A DNA stretch of 64,000 nt from Ulota crispa (Eukaryota > Streptophyta > Bryopsida > Orthotrichales > Orthotrichaceae): the NCBI GenBank assembly GCA_963920765.1, contig OY987243.1:18781419-18845418 (forward strand), written 5' to 3'. Below the pieces are notes generated by a model. The model worked only from the letters and a program-made list of their open reading frames with translations, made no database searches and was not told the origin of the DNA. A program made the translations under genes and the position numbers. Within the stretch, counting starts at the first letter, position 1; every line of letters starts with the position of its first letter. Of this stretch, positions 4,039-57,700 are shown piece after piece.

Positions 4039-7000
4039 TCAAGTTGTTAGTAAAACGACCTCCCAACCAGACCTTTTTATTCACAATGGTGTAAGGCCCA
4101 ACTAGTAAGGACCAGTTTTAGCGAGTTAAATGAAATCTTTAGCTGGAACTGGACATGATTCTTTACCTGTTAACACTCATTATCTTTTAGAATTTCTAGC
4201 TTAACCCGTTGTGAAGTTTCTAGAGCCTGGTGTTTTGTTGAAAGGCATTGGGTTTGATTTTATATTGCTATTATGGCAGGGCGTGCTGCATACAACGGGA
4301 GGGTACATGGTATATGCTGCTACAACTTTTAAATACGCGTTCAATTATCACGAAGATGACGTCTATTGGTGAGTCCTGGTTTCTGTTTCTTTCAAGGTAC
4401 TGGGGTTGACTGTGCACCACTAGTGTGTCATTTTTTTGAATTGAAGGTTACATTTCTAGTGCATGAAGGCATAAAGCTTGTGGTTGCTTTTACGCAGGTG
4501 CACAGCAGACTGTGGATGGATTACTGGCCATAGTTACTTGACGTATGGCCCTCTTCTCAACGGTGCCTCCATAGTGGTTTTTGAAGGGGTAATTGAGGCC
4601 CTCCTTGCTTCCTTACGTCGTGTCATAATCAAATAGCTTTGTCTTGATAATGGCTTTCCATTATTTTTTGTGTAAGAAAAATTTATTCGTGTCGTAGAAA
4701 ATATGGTTTTGCGTCGTGAAATGTGAGGTTTTGTGTTGTAGAAAACAGGGTTATGTGATGATCACTGAGTGTCAGTGCTGTGTGAACAGGTCCCCAACTA
4801 TCCAGACGCTGGGCGCTGCTGGGAAATAGTAGACAAGTACAAAGTGACCATCTTCTATACTGCCCCAACTGCAATTCGTTCATTGATGCGGTCAGGTGAC
4901 GAGGTATCTCCACAATTGCCCTAGTTATGTTCCAAGTTTTGGCTTAAAAATTTCTCCAGAAACAGAGGACCAAAAATATGGATATTGTAGGGTCTGATAG
5001 ACAAAAGGATGAAAAATCAAAATATAAAAAGCGTTTGTTTGGCATGTAGACAGAAGAGTATGAAACTCTAGTCAGAATACTTCCAAGGGATGAACCGCAC
5101 TCTTGAACTTTAAATAGCTATTCATTTTGCAAGGGACAAATGTGCAATGTGACTATGATACTCAAATTCGCAAGTCACTCCGCATCATGCTTGGTGAAAA
5201 GAAGATTATAGTATTTTGATGTGTAATAGAAATACCAACTTGGACAGTTTTCTAGGTATGTCGTATTGATCAATGTTTATTATCTGTTTCATGGTTTGGC
5301 AGCCTGTAAAGCGGCATTCTCGCAAGTCTTTGAGAGTGCTGGGAAGTGTGGGAGAACCAATTAATCCAAGTGCATGGAGATGGTACTATGATGTCGTTGG
5401 CAATAAACGATGTCCCGTCGTTGACACGTGGTGGCAAACTGAGACAGGGGGGTTCATGGTATGGACCAGTGTTCACAAATGTGACTAAACTTAGCAATAC
5501 TTCTACCGTTTTATTTTTTATGCTACAGAAACGTGCATAGCACAGTTTACATTTGAAATTCCAGCACGGGTTTTACTAACTTGAGCTAAATATGAAAACC
5601 ACAATCACATTTGAGAGCGCACTAGTATGGACTGTGTGCAATTTCTCATACTTTTTCAGCAATTAGCTTGAATCGTGCTGCCATGTCTTGAAGTATGTTA
5701 CAAATCTGTTTGTCATATTCCCTGTGCTATTGGTTTAATTTGCTTATATGGGACCGATGAATCTTATTCCTAACACTATGAAAATTGTGTTGTTTGTAGA
5801 TCACTCCACTACCTGGTGCTTGGAGCCTTAAACCTGGGTCTGCTACCTTACCTTTTTTTGGAGTCCAGGTACATCAAGGAAATATGTTGTTTTTCTCAGA
5901 AACAGTTCACATTCTGTTCCAAGTCCTACTAATTTCTCAAAATTCTCAAAAGCTGGTTCATTTTGAAATTTGAGGCTTATGATTTCACCCTACGTTCCAA
6001 GCCCTCAGTTCGCTTAGAAATGCAGTACATGGTATAACCTTTTGAAAATTTTGGTGCCAGGAAGGTAGGACGTAGTTCCAAGAATTGGGTTCAACCAAAA
6101 CAAAATTTGTACTTGGAAGCCAAGTCTCAAGAATCTTTTTGCATAGAATATTCAACATTTTTTGATATATTATTTTTTTCCCTTTGCAACCCAACAGAAT
6201 TAGACTTGGCGTTAAATGGAGACATGTAGAGTTTAAATATGGGACACAGTCTAAACTGCCCCCTCGCTATAACATCTGTGTCTAAGTTTGCATCTCACTC
6301 AAATTGTTGCCGCCCTAATGAAAACCATGTCATGCTCTAGTCTAAATGTCCACCCAACATGGTTGGAACTTGTCTAATGACTAGTTTGGCCGAAGTTGGA
6401 GACTCCCAAACTAAAACATGCTTGTACATGTAAGCATATCGAAAACCAAAATTGAACCTAAAACCAATACTATATACCTGTGTCATATGTTCAATACTAT
6501 GTACCTCTTGTGTATTTAGAGATCTTAAATGTAGGAGAGTAATACAATATGTTGGTGTTGGGTACATGATGTGCAGCCTGCTGTGGTGGATGAGAATGCA
6601 AAGGAACAGGCCGGGGAATGCAGTGGGTACTTGTGCATCAAGGGAGCGTGGCCTGGCATGATGCGAACTCTTCAAGGAGACCATGACCGCTATGAAACCA
6701 CGTACTTTGCTCCTTTCAAGGGCTTCTATTTCAGCGGTGATGGGTGCCGCCGGTCAGTTCCTTACATCATTTTTTGTTGTTACTCCACACAAGGCATTTT
6801 TAATATTATTTTTGAGGAAGAAAAAAAAAACCACAGCTGCCTACCATATCACATAATTGGGCTTAAACTTCAGTATCTAGTATAATTTCAGTAAAATAGG
6901 CACGTGTAATCCTACTCTATAGACCACCAAGCAGTTCAAAGTCCTGTTTTCAAAGTTCTAGGCACCTTGTGTTTATACAAATCCTAGTCATAATAGTTTT

Positions 7001-13360: not shown

Positions 13361-13800
13361 TCCCATGGCAAACAAGCCCGCGCTGCAGTCGCAGCGTTTG
13401 AGCGTTCGCGCGATGGCGCGTTGGCGCAGCCGACGAGCAATGGCGGTCTTTTGGGGGTGAAGAAGGAAACGACCGTGGGGCCTCCTAGTCGCACCCGCGA
13501 GCTTGCACGTTGTGCGGTGATGGCTCGCACGGAAGTGAAGAAGGACATAGGGTGCGCCGTCGTTCTGTCATGTGTTTTGCCTATAATTCTTGCTTTGGTG
13601 ACGTCGCTGTAGGTTTTGTGTGCTTGCATGTCTGGAAATTGGTGTCTGGTTGTCGTAAAGGCTTTCGATGTGTGTTTGGTTGTTTGGATGCTCGTATGTT
13701 CACTCAGATGCTCGTTTGGTATTTACTGGACGGTAAATGTTGGATTGTGATGACAGGGACAAAAAGGAAGCAGGGGAGAGCGTCAACAACAAGTCACTAA
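13361..13800. other. GC-rich tail of the SIN3 copy and spacer
   Basis: The high GC of the SIN3 copy continues to about 13620 and then declines. No frame here matches SIN3 after PAH2. The open frames, such as the one from 13421 to 13612, are short and unsupported. It may be diverged sequence carried with the retrocopy. Confidence 0.35.
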
Positions 13801-13990
13801 CAGTTGCACCATCATTGGCAGCTGCACCATCATTGGCAGCTGCACCATCATTGGCAATTGTACTATCACTGGTAGTTGCATTATCATTAGCAATTGCATT
13901 ATCACTAGCAATTGCATTATCACTAGCAATTGTATCATCACTAGCAATTGCACTATCACTGATAGTTGCATTATCACTCGCAATTGCACC
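13801..13990. repeat. 18-bp minisatellite, about 10.5 copies
   Basis: Tandem units of the type GCAATTGCATTATCACTA run without a break, with point differences between units. The period is a multiple of three, so long frames cross it on both strands (rich in Ala/Ser/Leu or Asn/Asp). These are repeat artefacts, not genes. Confidence 0.9.
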
Positions 13991-14019
13991 ACAACTTTCT
14001 CTCGGCCAAAAGAGAGCAC

Positions 14020-14300
14020 GGGATAAGGGGCACGAGGATAAGGGGGCACACGGATAGGAGGACACGAGGATAGAGGGCATGGGGAAAAAGGGGCACGGGG
14101 ATAGAGGGGCACGGGGATAGAGGCACAGGGATAAGGGGGCATGGGGGTAGAGGGCACGGGGATAAGGGGGCATGGGGGTCGAGGGTACGGGGATAAGGGG
14201 GCATGGGGTAGAGGGTACGGGGATAAGGGGGCATGGGGGTAGAGGGCACGGGGATAAGGGGCACAAGGATCAGGGAGCACGGGGATAGGGGGTGGGGGGT
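14020..14300. repeat. G-rich minisatellite (GGGGATA / GGGGCAY type units)
   Basis: Units of about 14-17 bp built from GGGCACGGGGATAAG and GGGGGCATGGGGGTAGA alternate for about 280 bp. The + strand is strongly G-biased, with many runs of 3-6 G separated by short loops, a G-quadruplex-prone arrangement. Pro-rich frames on the - strand are by-products. Confidence 0.9.
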
Positions 14301-15619: not shown

Positions 15620-17400
15620 TTAAAGAATAAGGTAGGGAGCCAAGCTGTACACCCCAAGCAGTAAAGAAACCACGGTACAACAGAAGCTCAAGAAGGTGAA
15701 AGCTACGGCAGCTTGAGCGTGTCCACAGAACACCGTGATCTTTCCATCTCTGCAGCCATTGCCATAATCATCCAGTACTCCTTCGTGATTGATTATCATA
15801 GCCACTGCAGCACCAGCAGCTCCTGCAGCCATGAGCAAGAATGCGAATACCTGCACACAGCAACAAGCTTTTCTTACTTTAAAACAGGTGTATAATGTCC
15901 ACAAACAAGTCAGCTAATCGTCATGTAGATACTGAAAGGAAAAGGATATTAAAACTACTTAAGAACTTAATCCTGTCTTCATTACTAACCCTGTTACTAC
16001 TTTGAAACTGCATAAGAAATTCATATATAGCAATAATGAACTTGACCTTACTAGATACGGTTCATTATAATCAAAGATCTCTTATCATTTCCCAGGAATC
16101 ATACTCCTGAACATTTACATGATGAGAATGGTGTCATCTGAGTAACAATTCTAATGCGTTATTTTAAAGTGATTTGCATGTATATGATTAATTCCAAGAA
16201 TTGTAGGGTGAAGTGAGGAAGTTATATTACCAGGTCACATCCAAAAGTGACAAATATGTAGACTTTGTTGGCGGCCTTTCCAGATACCAGAAGCATGACA
16301 GTCGTGAAGATTTGCCCCAAAGCGTATAAAGCTACCAGCACGTTCACTGCCAGTAAAAAGCTGCAGACATTCCAGCAAACTACTCATTTAGAAAGACCAC
16401 ACAGTTTGTACATGCACAATGCTGCGTCTGTCCTTGATAAGCTTTCAAAGTAGACATTAATGCCAGGGATCAAAACATCTAGTAGGCTGAATTCTACGTT
16501 TCAACAAAAATAGAATACTCTCCTTCTCTAGTTTTCTAGTTCAGTAACAACACAGAATTTCTGGCCTGCGGAGGAAAATAATGTCAGAATCGAGATCAAA
16601 AAAAATTCTATCAGGAGGCTAGTACATTGAGAAACGAATAATAAATCGCTTGTGCCATACTTGTAAATAGCAGGGCGGAAATCCCGAGGTCTGAGACAGC
16701 CTATGTTGAACATTTAAATAAAATAATCCAATCTTTGGAATGAGTATTTAACCCCTAAATGCCTGAGGTACCAAATTCTGGTGGTTTTCACACTAGAATT
16801 TGGTGACTCAGGCATTTGGGGGTGAAAGCTTAGGAAGGGACGCTGTTTTTAATACAGAGTTTTGAGTTTTTTTACGAGGGACATTGTGAGTACAAGAATG
16901 TACCATTTCTACTAAAATTATTTCAGTTAGCGAAGGAAAATTAGATGCATTTGGACACACCTTTAGACTGCATTCATATTGATAATACCCCTCCTATCCT
17001 AACACCAAGTGTGAACATACCTTAACAACCTTGGGCAAAAACTTCGTCCACAAAAATCAATGATAATCCAATCACAGATCTCACCTTAACCCTAAAACTC
17101 TCAATTCACAGATGTGCTCGGTAGTTCTGACCTGTAAGAGGTGAAATTGTTATACACCGCGCCGTTTTGATCTGCAGATGCCATCAAACTGAAAGCGATG
17201 ACGCTGAGAACAAACTCCAAGATTCGCAGTCCCAAGTTAAGACCCGAGATGTGGTTGATGTTCTTCTTCACCGCTTGCAATCCCGGGCTCGGCGTTTGCG
17301 TGTAATACCCCGCCCCATTCCGACCTTGTTCCATCGACTCTGCGCTCGGCGGCATCGCCCCCGCCTCATCTGCTCTGTAATCAGACTCCCCGGAGTACAT
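15620..17400 (-). CDS. CASP-like four-helix membrane protein
   Basis: Casparian-strip-membrane-protein-like (CASPL/MARVEL-related) plasma-membrane protein, which in the family forms membrane scaffolds. Three exons on the - strand: 17400-17132 (ATG at 17400), 16360-16231, 15850-15620 (TAA). They join in phase to 209 residues, the usual family length. A 60-residue Gly/Ser/Glu-rich cytosolic N-terminus precedes four hydrophobic helices: LRILEFVLSVIAFSLMAS with the conserved Arg of helix 1, SFLLAVNVLVALYALGQIFT, CDLVFAFLLMAAGAAGAAVA with the conserved Asp of helix 3, and a final helix ending SLAPYLIL. The loop between helices 3 and 4 holds two Cys (NGCRDGKITVFCGHA) typical of the family. Intron 1 contains two small MITE relics. 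No disabling change is seen. Confidence 0.92.
16748..16826. mobile_element. TTAA/CCCCTAAA-family mini-element in CASPL intron 1
   Basis: TTAACCCCTAAATGCCTGAG at the left is mirrored by CTCAGGCATTTGGGGGTGAA at the right. The element is 79 bp and folds almost completely back on itself. The right-hand TTAA has decayed to TGAA. It belongs with the elements at 45974, 52297 and 60362. Confidence 0.7.
16927..17024. mobile_element. One-armed TTCACACT-family MITE relic in CASPL intron 1
   Basis: Read on the - strand, it starts GGTATGTTCACACTTGGTGT and continues through GGGGTATTATCAATATGAAT. It matches the complete element at 47766-47883 in sequence and order but lacks the second inverted arm. Confidence 0.65.
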
Positions 17401-28894: not shown

Positions 28895-29623
28895 GGGAAA
28901 ATTTTGTGGATACCCCCCAGGTTTGCAATAGTGGTAGTCACGGTTGGTGTAAGATTGAGATTTCCTTGAAGATTGAGAAATGGCTGAGCGATTGTAGGAG
29001 CCAATGGAAGCACTTCTTCATGGAAGGAGGTGTGACACCCCTTTTGTGGGTGATGGAGGATGAAGAATGAAAGAATGAAGAATGTTTTACTTAGAGGAAG
29101 GCAATACGGCCACCAATTGGAAAAGCACAAAAAGCAAGGGTCAAAAGTAGCACATGAGCAAGTAAATGGTAAGAGTTCTCACACACAAAAAAATCTCAGG
29201 CCATTTCTCCACGCTTGGGAGACGAGAATTTTTTTTTCTCAATCTTCACGGAACTGGCCTCGTGAGAGTTGCAGACAACTTGGCATGTAGGTTTTCAGTG
29301 AAGATTGAGAAAACAGAAACTCAACTGTGACTACCACTAATATTTTCATAGGTACTTGGTACCCTGCTTTTTCAGAAATATCACAAATACCCTTGGATTA
29401 AAGATTTTAGGCATTTGTTTTGTTATGCATGTCACTTCCTTCTTTCTTTGTAGACAGACTATTTTTTCTTGTTATGTGTGCACACAAAGGAAGAAGGGAA
29501 GTGGCATGCACAATAAAACAAACACCTAATTTTTTTGGTCTAAAGATATTTGTGATATTTTTGAAAAAACAGGGTTATCTATGAAAACGTTGCAAATTTC
29601 AAGGGTATCCATGAAATTTTCCC
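28895..29623. mobile_element. GGGAAAATTTC-family foldback (Mutator-like MITE), with a nested insertion
   Basis: The ends GGGAAAATTTTGTGGATACC and its inverted partner (reading back GGGAAAATTTCATGGATACC) bound the element. The flanking 9-mers are ATTTTTGTT and TTTTTTGTT (8 of 9 identical), a Mutator-sized target duplication. The interior arms carry the family's mirrored AAAGGAAGAAGGGAAGTGGC block. A second, unrelated element (28930-29338) sits inside the left arm. Confidence 0.8.
28930..29338. mobile_element. Nested TIR element, AGTGGTAGTCAC ends, 3-bp duplication
   Basis: AGTGGTAGTCACGGTTG at the left and its inverse at the right agree at 16 of 17 positions. AAT flanks both sides (28927-28929 and 29339-29341). 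Removing the element plus one AAT restores TTTGCAATATTTTCATAGG, which matches the other copies of the host element. The 409-bp interior is non-coding. Superfamily not assigned. Confidence 0.7.
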
Positions 29624-42320: not shown

Positions 42321-44914
42321 ATGGCTCTACGGTGGTGTGGGTGTCCACCCATTTTGATACTATATTTAGAAGTTGCTAAAGTAAATTGTGCATGCTAACC
42401 TCATGAAAATTACAAGAAGAGAAAAATGGAACCTAACACCATGTCTCTAAATCTTCTCACAATTTGGGTCACTTAAAATTATGAGTTCATTTTTTGAGGT
42501 TTATTTTTGCCTTCCACAAAGGACCATGCCTAAAAATTCAAATGAAAAATGACTTTTTTTCCATCCTATACAAAGTTCTTTTTATGACTAGGGCACAAAA
42601 ATCATCCTCTTCGGCGTTTAAGAGGTAAATGCTAAGGGTTAAGTACGTTTGAAATCAAATTCCTGCAATTGAGTGTCCTGGTGGGGCTAGGTTTTTCTCA
42701 TTGCAGAGAGATCTGAATTTCTCGAGTATGGTTAGTGTCTTTACAAGCTAGAAATAGCAAAATCCTCTATGGAGTTATTGTCGTTGTCTGCAGCAAGGCT
42801 GTTGTTTATCCTCTAAGCAAGTGCAGGGAAAAGCTGTGTTTGAGTTATGTTCGTTTGCAAACTGCATTTTGACTTACAATTCGAACCATTGTCCACATGG
42901 ACACAACTCCGAGACTGAAGGTTGGGTGTTTGATTCTTGTGACTACACTCAATTAAGCCCTTGGTGAATTGAGAAGCCTGATTGGCCAAAACAAAGGGCA
43001 TGGCTCGGACCAGCACAAAGCGACCCAATCATTTCGTCAAATTCATGTACCACAAGGGCTTGGAGTTTCTAGTTGCTTTCACTAGGATCACAAAATTGGA
43101 AAGCCTAGAAGAGCTTGCACCCAATTATAGAGTCTAGGGCCATTGTATTCGTTAACTAAGTGTTGAAACCTGCACCAAATTTCTCTCACACTTTAGTTTT
43201 TCTGTTTCTACTTAATTAGTTGATTACAAAGGCTGCAGTTTGGTGGATCGTATATGCCACTTTGGTTAAACCAAGCCTTTGTTTCACTTTACTAGTTAAT
43301 TACAGTCCACAGGTATGTGTTTAGATTTTTAGGTCCCTATTCATGCAACATGAATTTAAAAAAATGTTTATTTTATTGCAATGTGTACAACAACACTAGG
43401 ACATGAGCCTTGGAGTGCAAGCATAAGATTAGTGAGCAAAAATTATGTGAGCATAGATTCTTATTATAGAGGAAGTTTTAAGTACTTAAACTTTTTATTG
43501 CACTAGAATTTTGATGGTCTTTTGGATAACACATTTTATCTTAAGTAATCTTTTAAATCCATAACCACTTGTCCTACAATCATGGTTTGGAATTAATTTA
43601 TAATATAGAACATACAGGTTAGAATGTTTGACAACTCTATACTTTTGCTTGTTTATTTTGTTTGCTTTGGACTCTACTTTTTAAGAAAAAATGTTTAGAA
43701 TTTTATGGTGTACCACAAAAATGCTCAATATTGGATGTTGTGCTCTTCTTCTAATCCAAAAAGATTGATTTTTTAAAATCTTGTGTTTATTTTGGGAAAC
43801 AACTATAGAAATTTAACTGTTGGTAATTCATTATCTAAGTACAACACAAAAACAACCACAGTGGGTGCAATTCTGAGATTTAAAAGAAATCACACACATA
43901 TTGTAACAAGTTACACACATTAGAGGAAACATGAGCTCAAGAGAAGGCCTCCCAACCTTGACAAACTACCCTATTTATTTAGGTAGGAGAAGCATAGGTA
44001 AAGTACCTACACAAGTGTCTTTACCTTGAGTAATTTACTCAAGTGTGCCATGGTACATAACTGATGATGGAAAACAATATTATAACACGACGATGACAAA
44101 TGTAAGGACCTTTAGTGGGACACAAGAATAAACTAGGACTAGAATTCCCAATGAAACAAGGACACTCATAAAAATAAAGCATACAATATTGTAAAAAGAA
44201 AATATTCTCATGAAGTACTTATAAGCGGGTATAGGAGATTAGTCTCTTTTTATTTGAAAAAAGACATTACATTTAAATGCTTTTGACCCCTCCAACCACT
44301 TTGCATAGGGACCTTCTCTTGAGCTCATTTTTCCTCTAATGTAAGTAACTGCAAGTTTAACTCTATAAAATTACAAAAAACCAGTTCAAACACGGCTTTT
44401 AACTCTATAAAATTACAAAAAACCAGTTCAAACACGGCTTGATTACAAAAATAAAAGATACTTGCATGTTACAACCAGTAGAATATACTAGAAATGCAAG
44501 CACTTTGGAAATCACAACCTACTATTTTGGTTATAATGATTAGTGTTGCAAGAAGTAATTGTTTCATTCATTCCATGCCTAAAGTATTCAAGATTGCATA
44601 ATGAAACATTTGCAACCCCCAAAGTAAGTTTCTCAATTAAAAAATATCATTGGTCATTAAATACAATAGTAATGAATATGGAAAAATGAATAAATAACAA
44701 CAAAGAGAGAAATTACGAAGGTGAGCTCTGTATTTCCATCATACGTTTAGTGCAAATGCAAGAAATAGCGTGTGTGACGATATTTTCTGCCAATTCTTGT
44801 TAAAAGTGGCTACCTACATTAGTGTGTACAACTCTTGTTCCAAGCCCAAACAGATGTTTGTAGTGCCTGCGTGCTACTTACATATCTGCCAAGGAAGGGA
44901 TAGATTAAAATGTA
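42321..44914. other. AT-rich intergenic DNA with a 42-bp direct repeat
   Basis: No gene is recognised. At 44359-44440 a unit beginning AACTCTATAAAATTACAAAA and ending CACGGCTT is duplicated in tandem almost exactly, a recent-looking duplication. The remaining short frames have no coding signature. Confidence 0.45.
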
Positions 44915-45243
44915 GGAAAATTTTAAGGATACCCCTCAAGTTTGCCATATTTGTATATAAACCCCTGGTTTTTCAGAAATTGCACAAATACCCTTGGATC
45001 ATCATTTTCTAACATTTGTTTTTTGCATTGTTTTGCTATGCATGCTACTTCCTTCATGACCAATGTTAAAGCAAAGAATGCAATAGAGCAATAAAAAAGC
45101 AACATGCACACAAGGTAGAAAGAAGTGGCATGCACAATAGAACAAACGCAAATTATGATCCAAAGGTATATGTGCAATTTCTGAAAAACCAGGGGTATCT
45201 ATACAAGTATGGCGAACTTCAGGGGTATTCATAAAATTTTCCC
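44915..45243. mobile_element. GGGAAAATTTC-family foldback, intact-looking MITE
   Basis: It begins GGAAAATTTTAAGGATACCC and ends in the inverse AAAATTTTCCC. The flanking 9-mers TAAAATGTA and TAGAATGTA match at 8 of 9. The interior is a long imperfect hairpin through CAAATACCCTTGGAT and its mirror ATCCAAAGGTATATGTG. This copy has about one terminal unit per arm, so it shows the unexpanded form of the element in 48209-49276. Confidence 0.8.
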
Positions 45244-46248: not shown

Positions 46249-49200
46249 TTACTTCTCTACCACAAACTCTTGAATCTGAATACCGGTGTGGCGTGCTTTC
46301 TCTTGCAAACTCAACAGAACTCTGTCTCCCAATTTCAAGCTTGTGACAGGAAGCGGTTTGACACCCTTCTCGCCTGAACAGATGCACTCGTTGATGCCAC
46401 TCGTTAGAGATTTGAGAGAGTTTCAGAGGCTATCATATAATCCACATCATACTCAATTCAACCCTCGTAGAAGTCATTACAGGTGCTGATGTTAGCAAGA
46501 CTTACCTCCAGAGGCAACAAGACAGACCGTTTCCGCGTTTTGTAGCAACACACTATGCTTAAGGCCGTCTTCGTCCACCTCAACAAGCAGCAAAGGCCTG
46601 GATTCGATTTTCACACGTCCCACCAAGACAGTCCGAGATCGTCCCATTGCGTCAATCACCAGTACTTGACTGCCAGTATGGAGCTCCGACAGGTATGCAG
46701 TACGGCCTCCAGCCACAGAAACGTATGCGTGCACAGGTCCCTGTTGTGAAAAACGCCTTATAGCAAGAAAGACTGAAAACAAACAAAAGCAAATGACTTG
46801 AAACTCTTCGAAAAAGCGAGAGTTTGGAAAACCTTGCCATTGGTGAGTGCCCAATTTAGAGTGAAAAGTAGAAAATCATACAGCAAAAATGAGCACTTTG
46901 ATACCCTTAATGCAGGAGAAAGTTTGACTAACTTACAGCATTCACTCGAAAAGGACGGGAGGCCACGTAGTTGCTTTCTAGGCATTCCGAGTGTACCAAG
47001 AACAGAGCTCTTGCAAAAGATCCTACCTGTACGACAGAGGCATTCTGTTATAGGTCGACTTTCATCAACTCATCGGTTAGACAATGGCAGTACTACTATT
47101 TGATCCAAATACTTTGTAAAAGGGTAGCAAAGTTTTGCGGTTTGAGAGCAGCTTACCAACAGCCCCTCTCCAGGACTCAACAGATTGCAGAGGTCAACAC
47201 AGACGCGATCTCCCATTCCAACAGACTCTACTTGAGTAACTGTTGCTTCCACCAGCGAAACTCCCATTTTCGAATCTCGCTTCTCGTTTATATATGCCTG
47301 CCATTACAACGGCGTAATTACAAAGCTTAAACAAGGGAGCCCTCAGGAGAAGAAAGATTAGATACACTATAACACATGACAAGTGGCATCACAAACTCGT
47401 GCAATCGATTGCATGAAAAATACTTGACTGCAGAATCCCAAAACTATCATAGGAACTCTTACCTTGAGAGCAAATACTTCGGAAGGATCATCGGTGTGCA
47501 GGACAACTCCATCAGTGCCCATTTCAAGGGCTTCAAGATAAGCCTGAGCATCAATTGCACTGCTCGCTGTTGCATACAGCACTGTGCTACTGCCCTGGAA
47601 AGCTGCCACCATGTTCTCAGCCGGAATAATCTACAACGCGGCAGCACAAACTGTCAGTTCAATATCCACGAAACCTATCTTCAATATTCAGAACCGCTAA
47701 TATCCTATGGCAACTGTAGCAAGTGTAACTACGACACAATCTTACAAAACAACGCTAGATATCTCTATGTTCACACTTGGTGTTAGGAGGGGTATTAGCA
47801 ATATGAATGCAGTCTAAAGGTGTGTAAATGCATCTAATTTTCCTTTGCTAATACCTCTCCTAACACCAAGTGTGAACATACCCTAATTCGATAATAAATC
47901 CGTGGTATCCAGTACGCAGGATAATTAAGATTGGTGGCAAGATTCCATTACCTGCCAATCGACTGCATTCATTACCACGACCTCAGCCTTGTCAATTAAA
48001 GCGGGAAGCAAATTAAGCTGCTCGCCAGAAGCAACTTGACCTAACACCGCCACCTGCTTATTCTCCGAATCCAAGAACTGGTCACTCTCCAGATAGAGAG
48101 GGTTGATCTTCGCGAGAGCTGCAACTCAGAATTGACAACTCGTAAGCTAAAATGTCATTGAAGAAGACCACACACTAATCCCAAACCAAACCTAAGAGAA
48201 AAAATCAAGGGAAAATTTCATGGATACCCCTGAAATTTGCAGTATTTTCACAGATACCCCTGCTTTTTCAGAAATTTCACAAAGACCCTTGGACCAAAAT
48301 TTTCAGGCGATTGTTTTGTTGTGCATGCCACTTCCCTTCTTCCTTTGTGCGCACGCATAACAAGAAAGATATAGTGTGCGCACAAAGGGAGAAGGAAAGT
48401 GGCATGCACAACAAAACAAACGCCTCAAAATTTTGGTCCAAGGGTACTTGTGAAATTTCTGAAAAAGCAGGGGTATCTATGAAAATATGGCAAACTTCAG
48501 GGGTGTCTAAAAAAATACTGCAAACTTCAGGGGTATCTATGAAAATACTGCAAACTTCAGGGGTATCTATGAAAATACTGCAAACTTCAGGGGTATCCAT
48601 GAAAAATACTGCAAACTTCAGGGGTATCCATGAAAATACTGCAAACTCCAGGGGTATCTATGAAAATACTGCAAACTTCAGGGGTATCTATGAAAATACT
48701 GCAAACTTCAGGGGTATCTATGAAAATACTGCAAACTTCAGGGGTATCTATGAAAATACTGCAAACTTCAGGGGTATCTATGAAAATACTGCAAACTTCA
48801 GGGGCATCTATGAAAATACTGCAAACTTCAGGGGTACCTATGAAAATACTGCAAACTTCAGGGGTATCTATGAAAATACTGCAAACTTCAAGGGTATCTA
48901 TGAAAATACTGCAAACTTCAGGGGTATCTATGAAAAATACTGCAAACTTCAGGGGTATCCATGAAAAATACTGCAAACTTCAGGGGTATCTATGAAAATA
49001 CTGCAAACTTCAGGGGCATCTATGAAAATACTGCAAACTTCAAGGGTATCTATGAAAATACTGCAAACTTCAAGGGTATCTATGAAAATACTGCAAACTT
49101 CAGGGGCATCTATGAAAATACTGCAAACTTCAAGGGTATCTATGAAAATACTGCAAACTTCAGGGGTATCTATGAAAAATACTGCAAACTTCAGGGGTAT

Positions 49201-49757
49201 CTATGAAAATACTGCAAACTTCAGGGGTATCCATGAAAAATATTGCAAACTTCAGGGGTATCCGTGAAATTTTCCCAAAAATCAATTGGCGACCCTTGCA
49301 GCCGTACTCAATTATGCAAAACAGGCTCGGTTATTTACACCGTGCAATAGCTGTGGAGATACAATTCCCCAATGATTATGGAAGACATTTCTACGACAAC
49401 CATGAATTGAAAATCTGTGAGGTTGGAGCACCTACATGTCCAATCTTTGGCAAGGTCCTTGGTCTCCGGTGTGAAGATGAACGTGGACCAACCGCCTTCC
49501 ACCGAAGCCGTCATCACATCCCTGCTCTTGGTCCATACCCACACGGTCTTTGCACTCGTTCCTGCCCGAGCACAAATTCTTGCCAACGCTCTTGAGCTGG
49601 TCGTTCTGGCAGAGAATGAGCTGCTGCGGCCAATGCTGAAGCTCGGGCGCACCAGCACTCCTGCAATTACCAGCAAAGTTGTCAGCAGTGAAAATATTTT
49701 GGATGAAGTGGCCTTAGTTTCTTTTCGAACCAAAAAATGGTTGAGTAGCAAGGATGG
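46249..49757 (-). CDS. 3-dehydroquinate synthase II-like (AroB'-type) plastid protein
   Basis: Homologue of the archaeal/plant DHQ synthase II family, whose archaeal members make dehydroquinate by an alternative route. The function of the plant copies is not established, because plants also have a standard DHQ synthase. Seven exons on -: 49757-49436, 48118-47952, 47630-47463, 47297-47157, 47026-46937, 46740-46506, 46373-46249 (TAA). They join to about 415 residues matching the plant family throughout: [79 protein letters not shown], and the C-terminus [12 protein letters not shown]. The Ser/Arg-rich N-terminus looks like a transit peptide, but the first exon has no ATG in frame. Either an upstream initiator exon exists or the start differs, so the 5' boundary is uncertain. 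Intron 1 is mostly a transposon. Confidence 0.88.
47766..47883. mobile_element. TTCACACT-family MITE in intron 2 of the DHQS-like gene
   Basis: TATGTTCACACTTGGTGTTA is mirrored by TAACACCAAGTGTGAACATA, and the arms stay complementary for about 35 bp (GGAGGGGTATTAGCAA against TTGCTAATACCTCTCC). The element is 118 bp and non-coding. It has the same sequence as the relic at 16927-17024. Confidence 0.8.
48209..49276. mobile_element. GGGAAAATTTC-family foldback with expanded arm, in intron 1
   Basis: The termini GGGAAAATTTCATGGATACC and the inverse ending GAAATTTTCCC are flanked by identical 9-bp direct repeats AAAAATCAA (48200-48208 and 49277-49285). Long terminal inverted repeats and a 9-bp duplication point to a Mutator-like non-autonomous element. 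The central hairpin (48300-48425) contains mirrored CTTCCCTTCTTCCTTTGTGC. The right arm is enlarged by a 30-bp minisatellite made from the terminal repeat itself. The element fills about 1.07 of the 1.32 kb of the intron. Confidence 0.88.
48470..49260. repeat. 30-bp minisatellite, 26 copies, derived from a transposon terminus
   Basis: Twenty-six head-to-tail units of the form TGAAAATACTGCAAACTTCA plus GGGGTATCTA, mostly 30 bp and some 31 bp, with few substitutions (GGGGCATC, AAGGGTATC variants). Each unit equals the sequence that occurs once near the end of the sister elements. High unit identity implies recent expansion. Long frames crossing it on both strands are repeat artefacts. Confidence 0.95.
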
Positions 49758-50267: not shown

Positions 50268-50501
50268 ATGCTGTTGCAGAGGAGGTGGTCCGTATTGCGG
50301 GATGCATTGCGGCCTCGCTTTCTCTATCGCGGTTCTCCTCACAATGTGATACTCATGTGGCAACTCCTTCAGATTTATGACTTCCTCGAGAATGCTCCGG
50401 TGGTGATGAAGACGGCGCAACAAGTGCGTGAGAAACGAATGGCGTCAGTCCAGGCACCCGCGGTGAGAGTGCCGAGGATCAGCATTCAGTCGGCGAAGTA
50501 A
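50268..50501 (+). CDS. Possible 77-aa basic protein, unknown function
   Basis: An ATG-started frame encodes MLLQRRWSVLRDALRPRFLY, resembling a mitochondrial presequence, then a hydrophobic/acidic middle (MWQLLQIYDFLENAPVVM) and a basic end. The stop codon TAA lies exactly where the 168-bp tandem repeat begins (AAGTAAGCACC), so the 3' end may have been altered by the repeat, or the GTAAGC there could be a splice donor. An overlapping ATG frame at 50164-50349 is an alternative. AAACCCTAA lies about 220 bp upstream. Not recognised as any family. Confidence 0.35.
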   Translation: MLLQRRWSVLRDALRPRFLYRGSPHNVILMWQLLQIYDFLENAPVVMKTAQQVREKRMASVQAPAVRVPRISIQSAK

Positions 50502-51400
50502 GCACCAGTGATCCCAATTGTGCTTATTACTTTTAGCACAGGTGGCTAAAAACTCTGCGAAAAGTTAAAATTGTCAAATTTAAGACTGAAAAGTTTACAT
50601 GTTTTTTTAGCTGCATGAAAATTTTGTTAGTAATCCTGCAAAATTTAGCCAGTTTCAAGAACGCTGATAAGCACCACAGATCCCAATTGTCATTATCACC
50701 ATTAGCACAAGTGCCTAAACATTCTTGCTAAAAAGTTAAAATTTTCAAATTTAACACTGGAAAGTTTACATATTCTTCTAGCTGCATGAAAATTTTGTTA
50801 GCAATCCTGCAGAATTTAGCCAATTCAAGAACGATGGTAAGCACTAGTGGTCGCAATTGTGATTATTGCTTTTAGCACAAGTGGCTAAAAACTCTGCTAA
50901 AAAGCTAAAACTCTCAAATTTAACATTGAAAAATTTACATATTTTTTTTAGGGAAAATTTCATGGATACCTAAGAAGTTTGCAATAATTTCATAGATACC
51001 CAGGCTTTTCCAGAAATTTCACAAATACCCTTGGATCATAATTCTCAGGAGTTTTTTTTTGTTGTGCATGTCACTTTCCTTCTCTTTTTGTGCACACACT
51101 ACTTCTTTCTTGTTACGCATGCGCATAAGGAAGAAAGAAAATGGCATGTACAACAAAAAAAAAGCACTTGAAAATTTTGGTCCAAAGGTATTTGTGAAAT
51201 TTCTGAAAAAGCAAGGGTATCTATGAAATTATTGTTAACTTCATGCATGGGTATCCATGAAATTTCCCCTTTTTTAGCTGCATGAAAATTTTGTTAGCAA
51301 TCTTGCAAAATGCCAATTTCAAGAATGCTAGTAAGCACCAGTGATCCCAATTGTGATTATCATAAGCAAAGTAAATAGCTAAAAACATAACCTACTTTGT
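50497..51400. repeat. 168-bp tandem repeat, three units plus a fragment
   Basis: Units start with GTAAGCACCAGTGATCCCAA at about 50497, 50665, 50832 and 51330. Each contains AGCACAAGTGGCTAAAAACT, a TTTACAT...TTAGCTGCATGAAAA block and ends AATTTAGCCAGTTTCAAGAA. The third unit is split by the MITE at 50951. Related single fragments occur near 1980-2070, 5470-5620, 7880-7950, 9120-9200 and 30000-30130, so this is a dispersed repeat that became tandem here. Confidence 0.85.
50951..51269. mobile_element. GGGAAAATTTC-family foldback inserted in the tandem repeat
   Basis: It starts GGGAAAATTTCATGGATACC and ends with the inverse GAAATTTCCCC. It interrupts the third 168-bp unit at its poly-T. The two preceding units show the unoccupied site (TTTACAT...TTTTAGCTGCATG), and T-rich duplicated sequence ending TTTTTTAG lies on both sides. 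The interior hairpin matches the other copies. Confidence 0.82.
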
Positions 51401-54703: not shown

Positions 54704-57700
54704 TTATCTGGCTGCATAATCGGCAACTTGTCCAGCAGTAGCGCGCCTCGTCTCGGAGGTGAATTCAGGCTCCTGAGTCTGGAATGAGCCAGCTGACGCT
54801 CTGTCGCTAGCAACACCGGCGGTGTCAGCCGCTTTCCTCATAGCAGCCTCAAGTGCACTATTCCCATCATTACCAGCTCTGTTTGCTTCTTCACGAGCAG
54901 CATCAGCAGCATCCTGCGAGGAATGCTGGATGCTCTCCAGTACTCCGGCAGCCTTCTGCCTCAATCCACCCCAGGAAAGGCCGGCACTATGAACAGTTTC
55001 ATCATGAATCTCTGCAGCACCCTTTCGTGCATCCTCCGCAGCCTTATCCATAGATTCCTGGACTTTATCACTGACAGGAGTCTTGGATCCCGTGGGGTCG
55101 AATGGTGAAGATGCAGCTGATGTGTTATGAACCGACGCGCCTGCTAAACTCTCGGAAACAACATTCCTATCTTGAACTGTGTCAAAGGTATCAGCCGTCT
55201 CGTTGGCAAAGCTCTCCAGCATCTGGGACGCCTTCAGCTTCCATCCTGTAACAGGCTCATGGTACTCTGCAGCCTGTGGCTTATCGTGAGTAGTATCCCA
55301 CGGAGCTGAAGCCTCGTGCGCACCGACCTTGTTGGTTCCCACGGTACTCTCTGACAAACTCGCCCGGTCAGCTGAGTCATTGAACGTATCTGCAGTTTCG
55401 TTTTGTGCGCTTCCCAAAACCTGCGAAGCTTTCTGCTTCAAGTCACTCCAATTCACGAGATCATGACCGCTCTGATGATCTGCATGACTCTTGTCCTTCG
55501 TTGCGTCCCAGGTTGATCCAGAGCGATCAACATTGCGAGATGTCACCCCTGCTGTACTCTCAGAAAGCGCACTTCTGTCTTGCGTTTCGCCAAACGTATC
55601 AGCTGTCTCGTTTTGTGTGCTGCTCAAAAACTGGGAAGCCTTCTGTTTCGCACCACCGTCTCCAACATCGGCAGGCTTAGTGTCTTGGTGGCCCCCAAGA
55701 AGCTGCGATGCCTTCTGCTTCAGACCATCGAAGCTCAAGAACGGTCCCCTTTTGTCCTCGGTGGTTGCTTTGTCCTGAACGGCATCGGCGGTGTCACGAG
55801 CTTGATCCTTGGTGGAATCCCAGCTGGAACCAACCTTGTTCTTAGCATCGTCAACGCTCTTTGAGGCATCGCTCTTGGTGGAATCCCAGCTAGAACCGAC
55901 CTTGTTCTTTGCATCCTCGACGCTCTTTGAGGTATCCCTCTTGGTGGACTCCCAGGAGGAGCTAAGCTTGTTTTCGGCATCCTGGGCAGTGTCAGAAACG
56001 TTCTTCTTGGTAGCATCCCATGTGGATGCGGCCTGATCCCCAGCTTCACCCGCCTTCTTCTGGGTTTGGTCAACTGTTTCATTCGTCTTGTGCTCTGCAG
56101 TGCCCAGAATGTTCGATGCTTTCTGCTTCATCTGCTCCCAAGCCGAAGCTGTGGACCCAGTAACATCATGTGAACGATCTCTAGCAGCATCACTAACTTC
56201 GTCCCTCGCTGCAGTAGCTTTGCTTCCCGCAGTATCAGCGGTCTCTGAAGCCTTCTGTTTCGTAGCGTCCCACGTCTGGCCAACACTGTCCTTGGTTTCG
56301 TCCTTCTTCTGACTCGCCACTCCTGTGAGTTCACTAGTTTTCTGCTTCGTAGCATCCCAAGTCTGTCCAATGCTCTGCTTCGTCGCATCCCATGTGGAAC
56401 CAGTTCTATCCACTGCCTCGTCTTTAGTATCTGTCGCAGCATCAGTGACCTCACCAGCTTTCTGCTTCGTAGCGCCCCATGTCTGAGCAGCATTGTCCTT
56501 TGTTGCGTTCCAAGTAGAGCCAGCTCTATCCTTCGATTCTTCTTTAGTATCGTATGCTGCATCCGTAGCCTCACCAGCTTTCTGCTTTGCAGCATCCCAC
56601 GTCTGACCAGCGTTGTCTTTGACTTCGTCCTTCTTGTTTTGAGTCACACCAAGGATATTACTAGCTTTCTGCTTGGTAGCGTCCCAAGTCTGAGCGGATT
56701 TTTCCTTGGTAGTCTCCCAGGTAGATCCAGCTTTATTCTTGGTGTCCTCCGTCATATCACGCGCTGCGCCAGAAGCCTCGTCAGCTTTCCGTGCGGATGC
56801 GTCCCATGCTTGACCAGCGCTGTCTTTGGTTTGCTCCTTTTTATCTTGAGCTGCACCCGTGAGTTCACCGACCTTCTGCTTCGTTGCATCCCAAACTCCA
56901 GTCGCGCGATCCTTAGCAGCGCCTGTGTAATCATCAACAACTCCCTTTGCACCCTCGACAGTCTCTCCGGTCTTCCGTGAGGCTGTGTTGGCTGTATCGG
57001 TACTAGATTCGGTGATTGATTTTGAGGCCTGATCAAGATTTCTCTTTGCTTCTTCAATGTAATCGTAGGTCTTATCACTTGTGGCACCATACCTGAATTA
57101 CAGTCAACAACAATTACATCAGAATTGATGTAACAAAAAATCACAGCGAGAAACACCTGCCGATTTACATCGATGGTTACTTTCTTCACCAAGTAGTTTG
57201 CACTTGGGAATGTGAGTTCCTGTTAAAATTTATCATTCATCAGCATGAGGAGTTTACATCGTACACCTTCGGGCTCAAAACATTTAAAATACTATCATCG
57301 CTTGTCAATTGCCTGCCCTTCTCTACAAGACAAAGTAAAGAAAGCTGACATAATAGCAAGAGGCAATGACTCCATCCCGGTAGCAATATCGTTCATTGCT
57401 CTTCTGATACTATAATTAAGAGAAAGATTACCGGACAACAACTTCTTCGGGCTTTTGCGAACGAATGATATTCCACTTGTTGAGAGAAGTACTAACACAA
57501 GAGCCACATCAACGACCTCTAAATCAACTGCGAAAACTAATTGAACCAATAACCTTTCCCACAGCATACTCAACCTTTCCTAATGACACCACCGCATTGA
57601 AATAGGTGAATTATAAGAAAACTCGAATGTGTGCACAACTTGATATGTAGGAATCATCCGATCGGATGTGAACAATGCACATAACATGACATCTGAGAAT

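Follow-up and report, generated by a model that had tools for sequence, protein, structure and literature searches.

A 64,000-nucleotide stretch of the Ulota crispa genome (assembly GCA_963920765.1, contig OY987243.1, positions 18,781,419 to 18,845,418; hereafter the window, whose own numbering is used below) carries a minisatellite of 26 units, each 30 or 31 bp long, in an intron of a DHQ synthase II gene. The evidence supports the view that this array is an expanded arm of a terminal inverted repeat (TIR), lying within a short transposable element that is bounded by a 9-bp target-site duplication (TSD). The element belongs to a large family that is most likely Mutator-like and of the foldback type, and in which smaller expansions of the same kind are found at many other loci. 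The parts of the host intron and of the element are the following.

48119-49435, minus strand: host intron of the DHQ synthase II gene, 1,317 bp, or 240 bp minus the element and one TSD copy; GTAGGT...TTGCAG, from the joined exons compared with PF01959
48200-48208: left TSD AAAAATCAA, identical to 49277-49285, in the 9-bp register common to the family
48209-49276: whole non-autonomous element, 1,068 bp, most likely of Mutator-like/foldback type, with terminal GGGAAAATTTCATGGATACCC and a perfect 9-bp TSD
48209-48291, minus strand: left arm, unexpanded, made of a terminal partial unit, one full unit and an inner degenerate unit; three motif matches on the minus strand
48292-48438: palindromic core, in common with sister copies, from identity to sisters and fold
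48439-48467, plus strand: inner degenerate 29-bp unit of the right arm, CAAGGGTACTTGTGAAATTTCTGAAAAAG, like the unit in ordinary sisters
48468-49252, plus strand: 26 tandem full units of 30 or 31 bp, from Tandem Repeats Finder and motif splitting
49253-49276, plus strand: terminal partial unit, the true end of the element, matching the family terminus
49277-49285: right TSD AAAAATCAA, copy of the left duplication

Tandem Repeats Finder places the array at 48468-49269, with a period of 30, 26.6 copies, 94% matches and a score of 1412. Splitting by the motif CAGGGGTATCTATGAAA, which has 37 matches in the window at up to three mismatches (0.12 expected from shuffles), yields 26 full units, 21 of 30 bp and five of 31 bp, after which an incomplete terminal unit closes the arm with ...GTGAAATTTTCCC at 49276. 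The 26-unit array described in an earlier note, which was made from the sequence and its open reading frames, is therefore real; the bounds given there, 48470-49260, were accurate to within a few bases, the full units and the terminal unit together spanning 48468-49276. The expanded right arm, inner unit included, corresponds to 48439-49276, with the array seated between an inner unit and a terminus that are both intact, and it contains 28 motif matches vs three in the left arm. The sequence GGGAAAATTTCATGGATACCC starts at 48209 and recurs in inverted orientation ending at 49276, with zero and one mismatches, respectively, so that terminal inverted repeats are present. These inverted ends and the flanking AAAAATCAA nine-mers place the array inside a transposable element, which supports the earlier proposal that it derives from a transposon end. 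The left arm plus core has 90-93% identity to 39 sister copies, and positions 48209-48525 (317 nt) can fold into a near-perfect hairpin of -218.9 kcal/mol (mean of 100 shuffles, -74.4; z = -30), a long-TIR stem-loop such as foldback elements possess. On the minus strand of 48468-49252, the 30-bp array units preserve long open frames.

The host gene was identified from six minus-strand pieces, three of which, all downstream, match PF01959 (DHQ synthase II) when scanned singly. The pieces flanking the intron have no match alone; once they are joined with their neighbours, residues 52-200 align to positions 1-153 of the PF01959 profile with an E-value of 1.4e-29. Both the gene and the intron named in the earlier note, 48119-49435, were thus recovered. 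The intron had been called the first; a further 5′ coding exon of 43 bp (50307-50265), predicted ab initio from splice signals and reading frame, makes it intron 2 in the gene model. The element takes up most of its 1,317 bp.

We searched the whole genome (274.8 Mb, 157 contigs) for relatives of this element. Scoring of the best 40 of 3,755 first-look candidates gave 39 other copies, and the 31-base terminus occurs at 5,378 places (2,673 + 2,705; up to two mismatches), with none in the control. Ordinary copies measure 309-316 bp (n = 16). Being short, non-coding and present in high copy number, the family has the traits of miniature inverted-repeat transposable elements (MITEs). We examined 51 distinct loci, comprising the four window elements, 17 ordinary sisters and 30 loci found by a two-unit tandem pattern; this set was reached from 72 loci by removing L070-L072 and 22 overlapping entries (repeat hits of one locus and the locus of the window itself), which left 47, and adding the four window elements. 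The TSD test used the 41 of these 51 loci at which both ends have at most three mismatches. In those 41 copies, the two flanks agree at a per-base rate of 0.78-0.90 across exactly nine positions, vs 0.10 and 0.02 at the bases adjoining these. All nine positions agree in 17 copies, at least eight in 26 and six or fewer in 10, vs 0.37% of 1,640 mismatched-pair controls reaching at least eight of nine. The target sites are 86% A+T. Members of the Mutator-like (MULE) superfamily make TSDs of 8-10 bp, mostly 9. A 9-bp duplication across 41 copies with such ends makes this superfamily the most likely one, and the family a non-autonomous one of the foldback type, an assignment resting on TSD length and TIRs. 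A candidate autonomous partner, L070 (C1:24288100-24292000), with opposed termini 3.8 kb apart, was rejected, as it encloses ABC-transporter coding pieces and more family ends. At this locus, several family ends lie between coding pieces of an ABC transporter gene (PF00664, PF00005), indicating that introns of other genes also hold the family.

Comparison with unexpanded copies shows what was multiplied in the window. Ordinary arms typically contain three motif copies, 29-30 bp apart; in a few arms, only two copies reach the motif threshold. From the core outwards, the three are a degenerate inner unit ending ATTTCTGAAAAAG, a single full unit and a terminal partial unit. The three other family members in the window have one to three units per arm; the earlier note rightly saw the unit in these sisters and put its count at one or two. 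Since normal arms already carry three degenerate copies, the array is an expansion of built-in subterminal repeats, and the idea that a single unit had become an array is abandoned. The longest motif run per locus (n = 51) is two at two loci, three at 25, four at 14 and five at six, with runs of 7, 8, 10 and 28 found once each; these counts include inner and terminal units that pass the threshold, and 30 of the 51 loci were chosen for holding a tandem. The family therefore displays the variable number of direct repeats in TIRs that is characteristic of foldback elements. None of the 24 loci with a run of at least four has both arms expanded, the opposite arm having three motif copies or fewer or, at L044, being missing. 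Such one-sidedness is expected from rare independent events, and we read no mechanism into it.

Units are closer within a locus (mean distance 0.090) than between loci (0.130), a value that none of 1,000 label shuffles matched or undercut, and expanded loci have variants of their own; for example, AAACTATTGC is common to the units of L047 and ATTACAAA to those of L053. These locally common variants imply that expansions arose independently and many times, so that the window array is not a singular event. Two adjacent full units (up to three mismatches over 60 bases) occur at 33 distinct loci including the window's, 31 plus two from a further search, and ordinary arm ends number 2,115 (up to three mismatches over 54 bases). 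Very roughly, tandems thus make up 1.6% of arm ends, which is a lower bound because more divergent arrays escape these patterns. This suggests that the subterminal repeats of the family are a recurrent source of minisatellites. Because a single genome offers thousands of copies, one could count how often tandem arrays begin to grow instead of inferring it from one example; within the window itself, the account gives an ordinary explanation of one intron and one array.

At most of the tandem loci examined elsewhere, the array remains tied to the element. The earlier note had linked its account of the origin to whether element-free arrays of the unit exist, and the genome-wide search did not refute that origin: the palindromic core adjoins the array at 28 of the 30 other tandem loci examined; at L044, the inner TIR unit survives beside it, together with a core stump a few bases long; and at L027, about 0.5 kb separates the tandem from the core, with foreign-looking sequence intervening and two equally oriented units nearer to the core. 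The L027 array stops mid-unit, without a terminus. Beside this displaced array, at about 1380-1490 of the locus, is another short tandem, of GTGCCCCTATTTGTAAT type and from a different element, ending in TTTCCCC.

First motif counts had made the window array appear by far the longest. A search with 11 window-array units, in which the best 40 of 1,702 candidates were scored, overturned this by revealing a longer array on contig C10 (3243755-3246329), as well as comparable or smaller ones, such as those at C3 4999100-4999748 and C9 3525248-3525616. The C10 array spans up to about 2.6 kb, an upper value given that no match falls between 3243924 and 3244391 among the matches listed, and is more divergent, with 76-82% identity to the query. 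Several of these arrays, for example those on C9, C1 (15455675), C7 (11010736) and C2 (7066753), have a unit match on the opposite strand within 0.6 kb, the pattern expected of a second arm; none was seen for the C10 array or for C3 4999100 among the matches listed. At its inner edge, the C10 array has a recognisable inner TIR unit (ATTTCTGAAAAAA), and the unit after it is interrupted by a different inverted-repeat insertion of about 400 bp (L071, C10:3243300-3243850, about 49-455); at its outer edge, it halts mid-unit at unrelated sequence, without a terminus. The largest array, as read from its edges, thus still shows a trace of the TIR at its inner edge, and its outer end is gone.

Satellite DNA consists of long homogeneous arrays, of kilobases to megabases, at many or heterochromatic sites. 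The window array, 0.8 kb at one locus, is a minisatellite, and its earlier description as the birth of a satellite was overstated. We tentatively suggest that, in this one genome, a single MULE-like MITE family may present a graded series from TIR repeat to freed array: arms of three units, runs of 4-10 that arose independently in one arm, a young array of 26 units still ending in its terminus, and arrays that have lost theirs (L027 and the older C10 array). If true, the series would be a natural experiment on how often transposase-binding repeats seed tandem arrays.

Based on the above data, we consider it highly probable that a short Mutator-like/foldback element inserted into the DHQ synthase II intron and that its right arm then grew in place. 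A short non-autonomous DNA transposon entered the intron, generating the 9-bp TSD, and its normal arm carries subterminal repeats at 29-30 bp spacing. The middle full unit of the right arm, judging by the position of the array between the intact inner unit and the terminus, would then have multiplied to 26 copies. This multiplication would have followed insertion and may have proceeded by replication slippage or by unequal exchange of in-register repeats. Similar events occurred independently at many sister copies, mostly with a gain of one to a few units. The built-in repeats might serve the transposase as binding sites, a role suggested for those of Galileo and foldback elements, and the array itself is probably a passive by-product in its host gene.

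Divergence bears on the timing. Array units 3-25 differ from their own consensus at 12 of 690 sites, or 1.7% (the extra A of the 31-bp units excluded), vs 4.5% between the left arm plus core and the majority sequence of 16 sisters, which is consistent with expansion or homogenisation after insertion. Of the 17 ordinary sisters, 16 also entered the comparison of arms given below, L007 having no clean end pair; several of these 16 lie the other way round, so that their own distances from the majority sequence are too large. Only the window locus has a two-unit tandem matching the window type with at most one mismatch, and hence no daughter copy of the array was found. The simplest reading is that the array grew, or was at least homogenised, once the element had inserted. 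That an element with an already expanded arm arrived in the intron is unlikely: the array has the two element ends and the two TSD copies outside it, so that the insertion itself does not date the expansion, yet a ready-made array is opposed by the uniqueness of the window-type tandem and by the local variants that other expanded loci have of their own. It is still harder to credit that an independent 30-bp minisatellite came first and that an element inserted beside it or captured it, a scenario we regard as extremely improbable. The 28 motif matches facing three in the other arm, the L027 array that is not directly beside its core and the C10 array with no terminus on its outer side would fit it, but the window array is located inside the TSD, between inner unit and terminus, unexpanded sisters carry its unit as a subterminal repeat of the element itself, and the core adjoins 28 of the 30 other tandems examined, with the stump at L044 and same-arm units beside the core at L027.

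Several results weigh against in-place growth of a Mutator-like element, or against parts of that account. The genome contains 54 matches to the MULE transposase domain PF10551 and 15 to PF03108, none of them so far linked to family ends; on contig C1, none of the four PF10551 matches has an exact 31-base terminus within 10 kb, among the 100 of 5,378 places listed, and none of the six frames searched in L070 contained a transposase domain. Of 103 units at expanded loci, only 65 have a unit of the same locus among those nearest to them. The age ratio of 1.7% vs 4.5% is rough because homogenisation also lowers the divergence of an array. Blocks of several units, suggestive by eye, do not recur in the window array beyond chance (2,956 of 5,000 shuffles reached the observed count), which speaks against this higher-order structure and leaves block-wise exchange without direct support. 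Lastly, the innermost array unit has TATGGC, as in 19 of 32 sister arms, vs TACTGC in units 2-25, so that the founder unit may stem from the other arm. Copying of that unit from the left arm during hairpin formation, followed by its amplification, is a doubtful possibility, though we rank it above a ready-made array. TACTGC occurs in the array and in the left arm but in only one of the 32 arms of 16 sisters, the element can form a near-perfect hairpin, and arms of one element are closer to each other (0.051) than arms of different elements (0.072; 0 of 2,000 shuffles). However, a single transition separates the array unit from the genome-wide TATTGC type, two further sites set it apart from the left-arm unit, and common arm variants may be inherited from one source copy. 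The lack, among 24 loci, of any with both arms expanded also speaks against arm-to-arm copying, although rare independent events predict the same. A role in the host gene, for instance in splicing or chromatin, is very unlikely to be the reason why the array persists: its TACTGC variant does place 24 copies of the acceptor-like TTTGCAG, resembling the true acceptor TTGCAG, on the gene's sense (minus) strand within the intron, but the element is one among thousands of copies, and tandems exist at many other loci without this variant.

Repeats of this kind within terminal inverted repeats have precedents in several systems. In plants, SoFT, FARE and Tnr8 have a foldback structure with repeated TIR motifs, and we liken them to the window family by this general description, not by sequence. 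All three are cited in the report on Tm1, a Mutator/Foldback family of root-knot nematodes (PMC3169594). Tm1 has composite TIRs with a variable count of a motif of about 14 bp, MITE-like members and TSDs of mostly 9 bp (PMC3169594), and so resembles the window family in all three respects; its motif and host are different, and it includes members encoding a putative transposase. In the foldback transposon Tetris of Drosophila virilis, tandem repeats internal to the TIRs vary between alleles and have been amplified into long arrays (the TIR-220 satellite), some of which have no adjoining TIR domain in the assembly (PMC4079207). Tetris likewise is a non-autonomous foldback element with TIR-internal repeats amplified to arrays, but its repeat is about 220 bp, its host an animal and its arrays of kilobase size and near heterochromatin, as opposed to 30 bp, dispersed loci and a 9-bp TSD here. 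Galileo of Drosophila has unequal numbers of tandem repeats in the two TIRs of one copy, as found here, and its repeats have been proposed as secondary transposase-binding sites (PMC3573991; the binding-site paper is PMC3688188); it differs in belonging to the P superfamily, with 7-bp flanking duplications and repeats of about 210 bp in two or three copies. BrickBuilt of Porphyromonas gingivalis is a short-unit minisatellite within a MITE (PMC4596501) and is alike in this, but it is bacterial, and its 23-bp repeat forms the body between leader and tail rather than an expanded arm. A review names both MITEs and TIRs as sources from which tandem repeats arise (PMC9659126). Tetris, Tm1 and Galileo already show foldback-type TIRs with a variable number of repeats and independent change in one TIR, and Tetris a satellite as well, so that TIR expansion is known. 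What is new here is the family with its unit of 30 bp and the spread of sizes within a single genome, relative to the open-licence literature; we make no claim that the family is unpublished.

The three sister elements in the window are listed below.

28895-29623: sister element, 729 bp, with an interrupted left arm; TSD match 8/9
44914-45243: sister element, three and two units per arm; TSD match 3/9 at the ends as drawn, 8/9 with one end moved by one base
50951-51269: sister element, three units per arm, inside a 169-bp tandem repeat; TSD match 6/9 as drawn, 8/9 with both ends moved by one base

The 169-bp repeat (2.6 copies at 50499-50943) resumes at 51270-51320, beyond the last of these sisters, and its presence on both sides implies that the element inserted into the repeat; the uninterrupted insertion site is visible in another 169-bp unit. 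A second, unrelated short inverted-repeat element, with arms TATGTTCACACTTGGTGTTAGGAGGGGTATTAGCAA, occupies 47766-47880 in the next intron of the DHQ synthase II gene, and its end partly recurs at about 17006-17019. An Rfam scan of the window at gathering scores returned no matches. At 13794-14292, two adjoining minisatellites, one with periods of 18/54 bp and the other with periods of 16/31/46/61/92 bp of GGGCACGGGGATA type, are open in two minus-strand frames. A 797-codon open frame on the minus strand at 54704-57097 consists of repeated TWDATKQKA-like units; against Pfam, it matches Apolipoprotein alone, below the cut-off (57.7 vs 90 bits), and it is reminiscent of group 3 LEA proteins.

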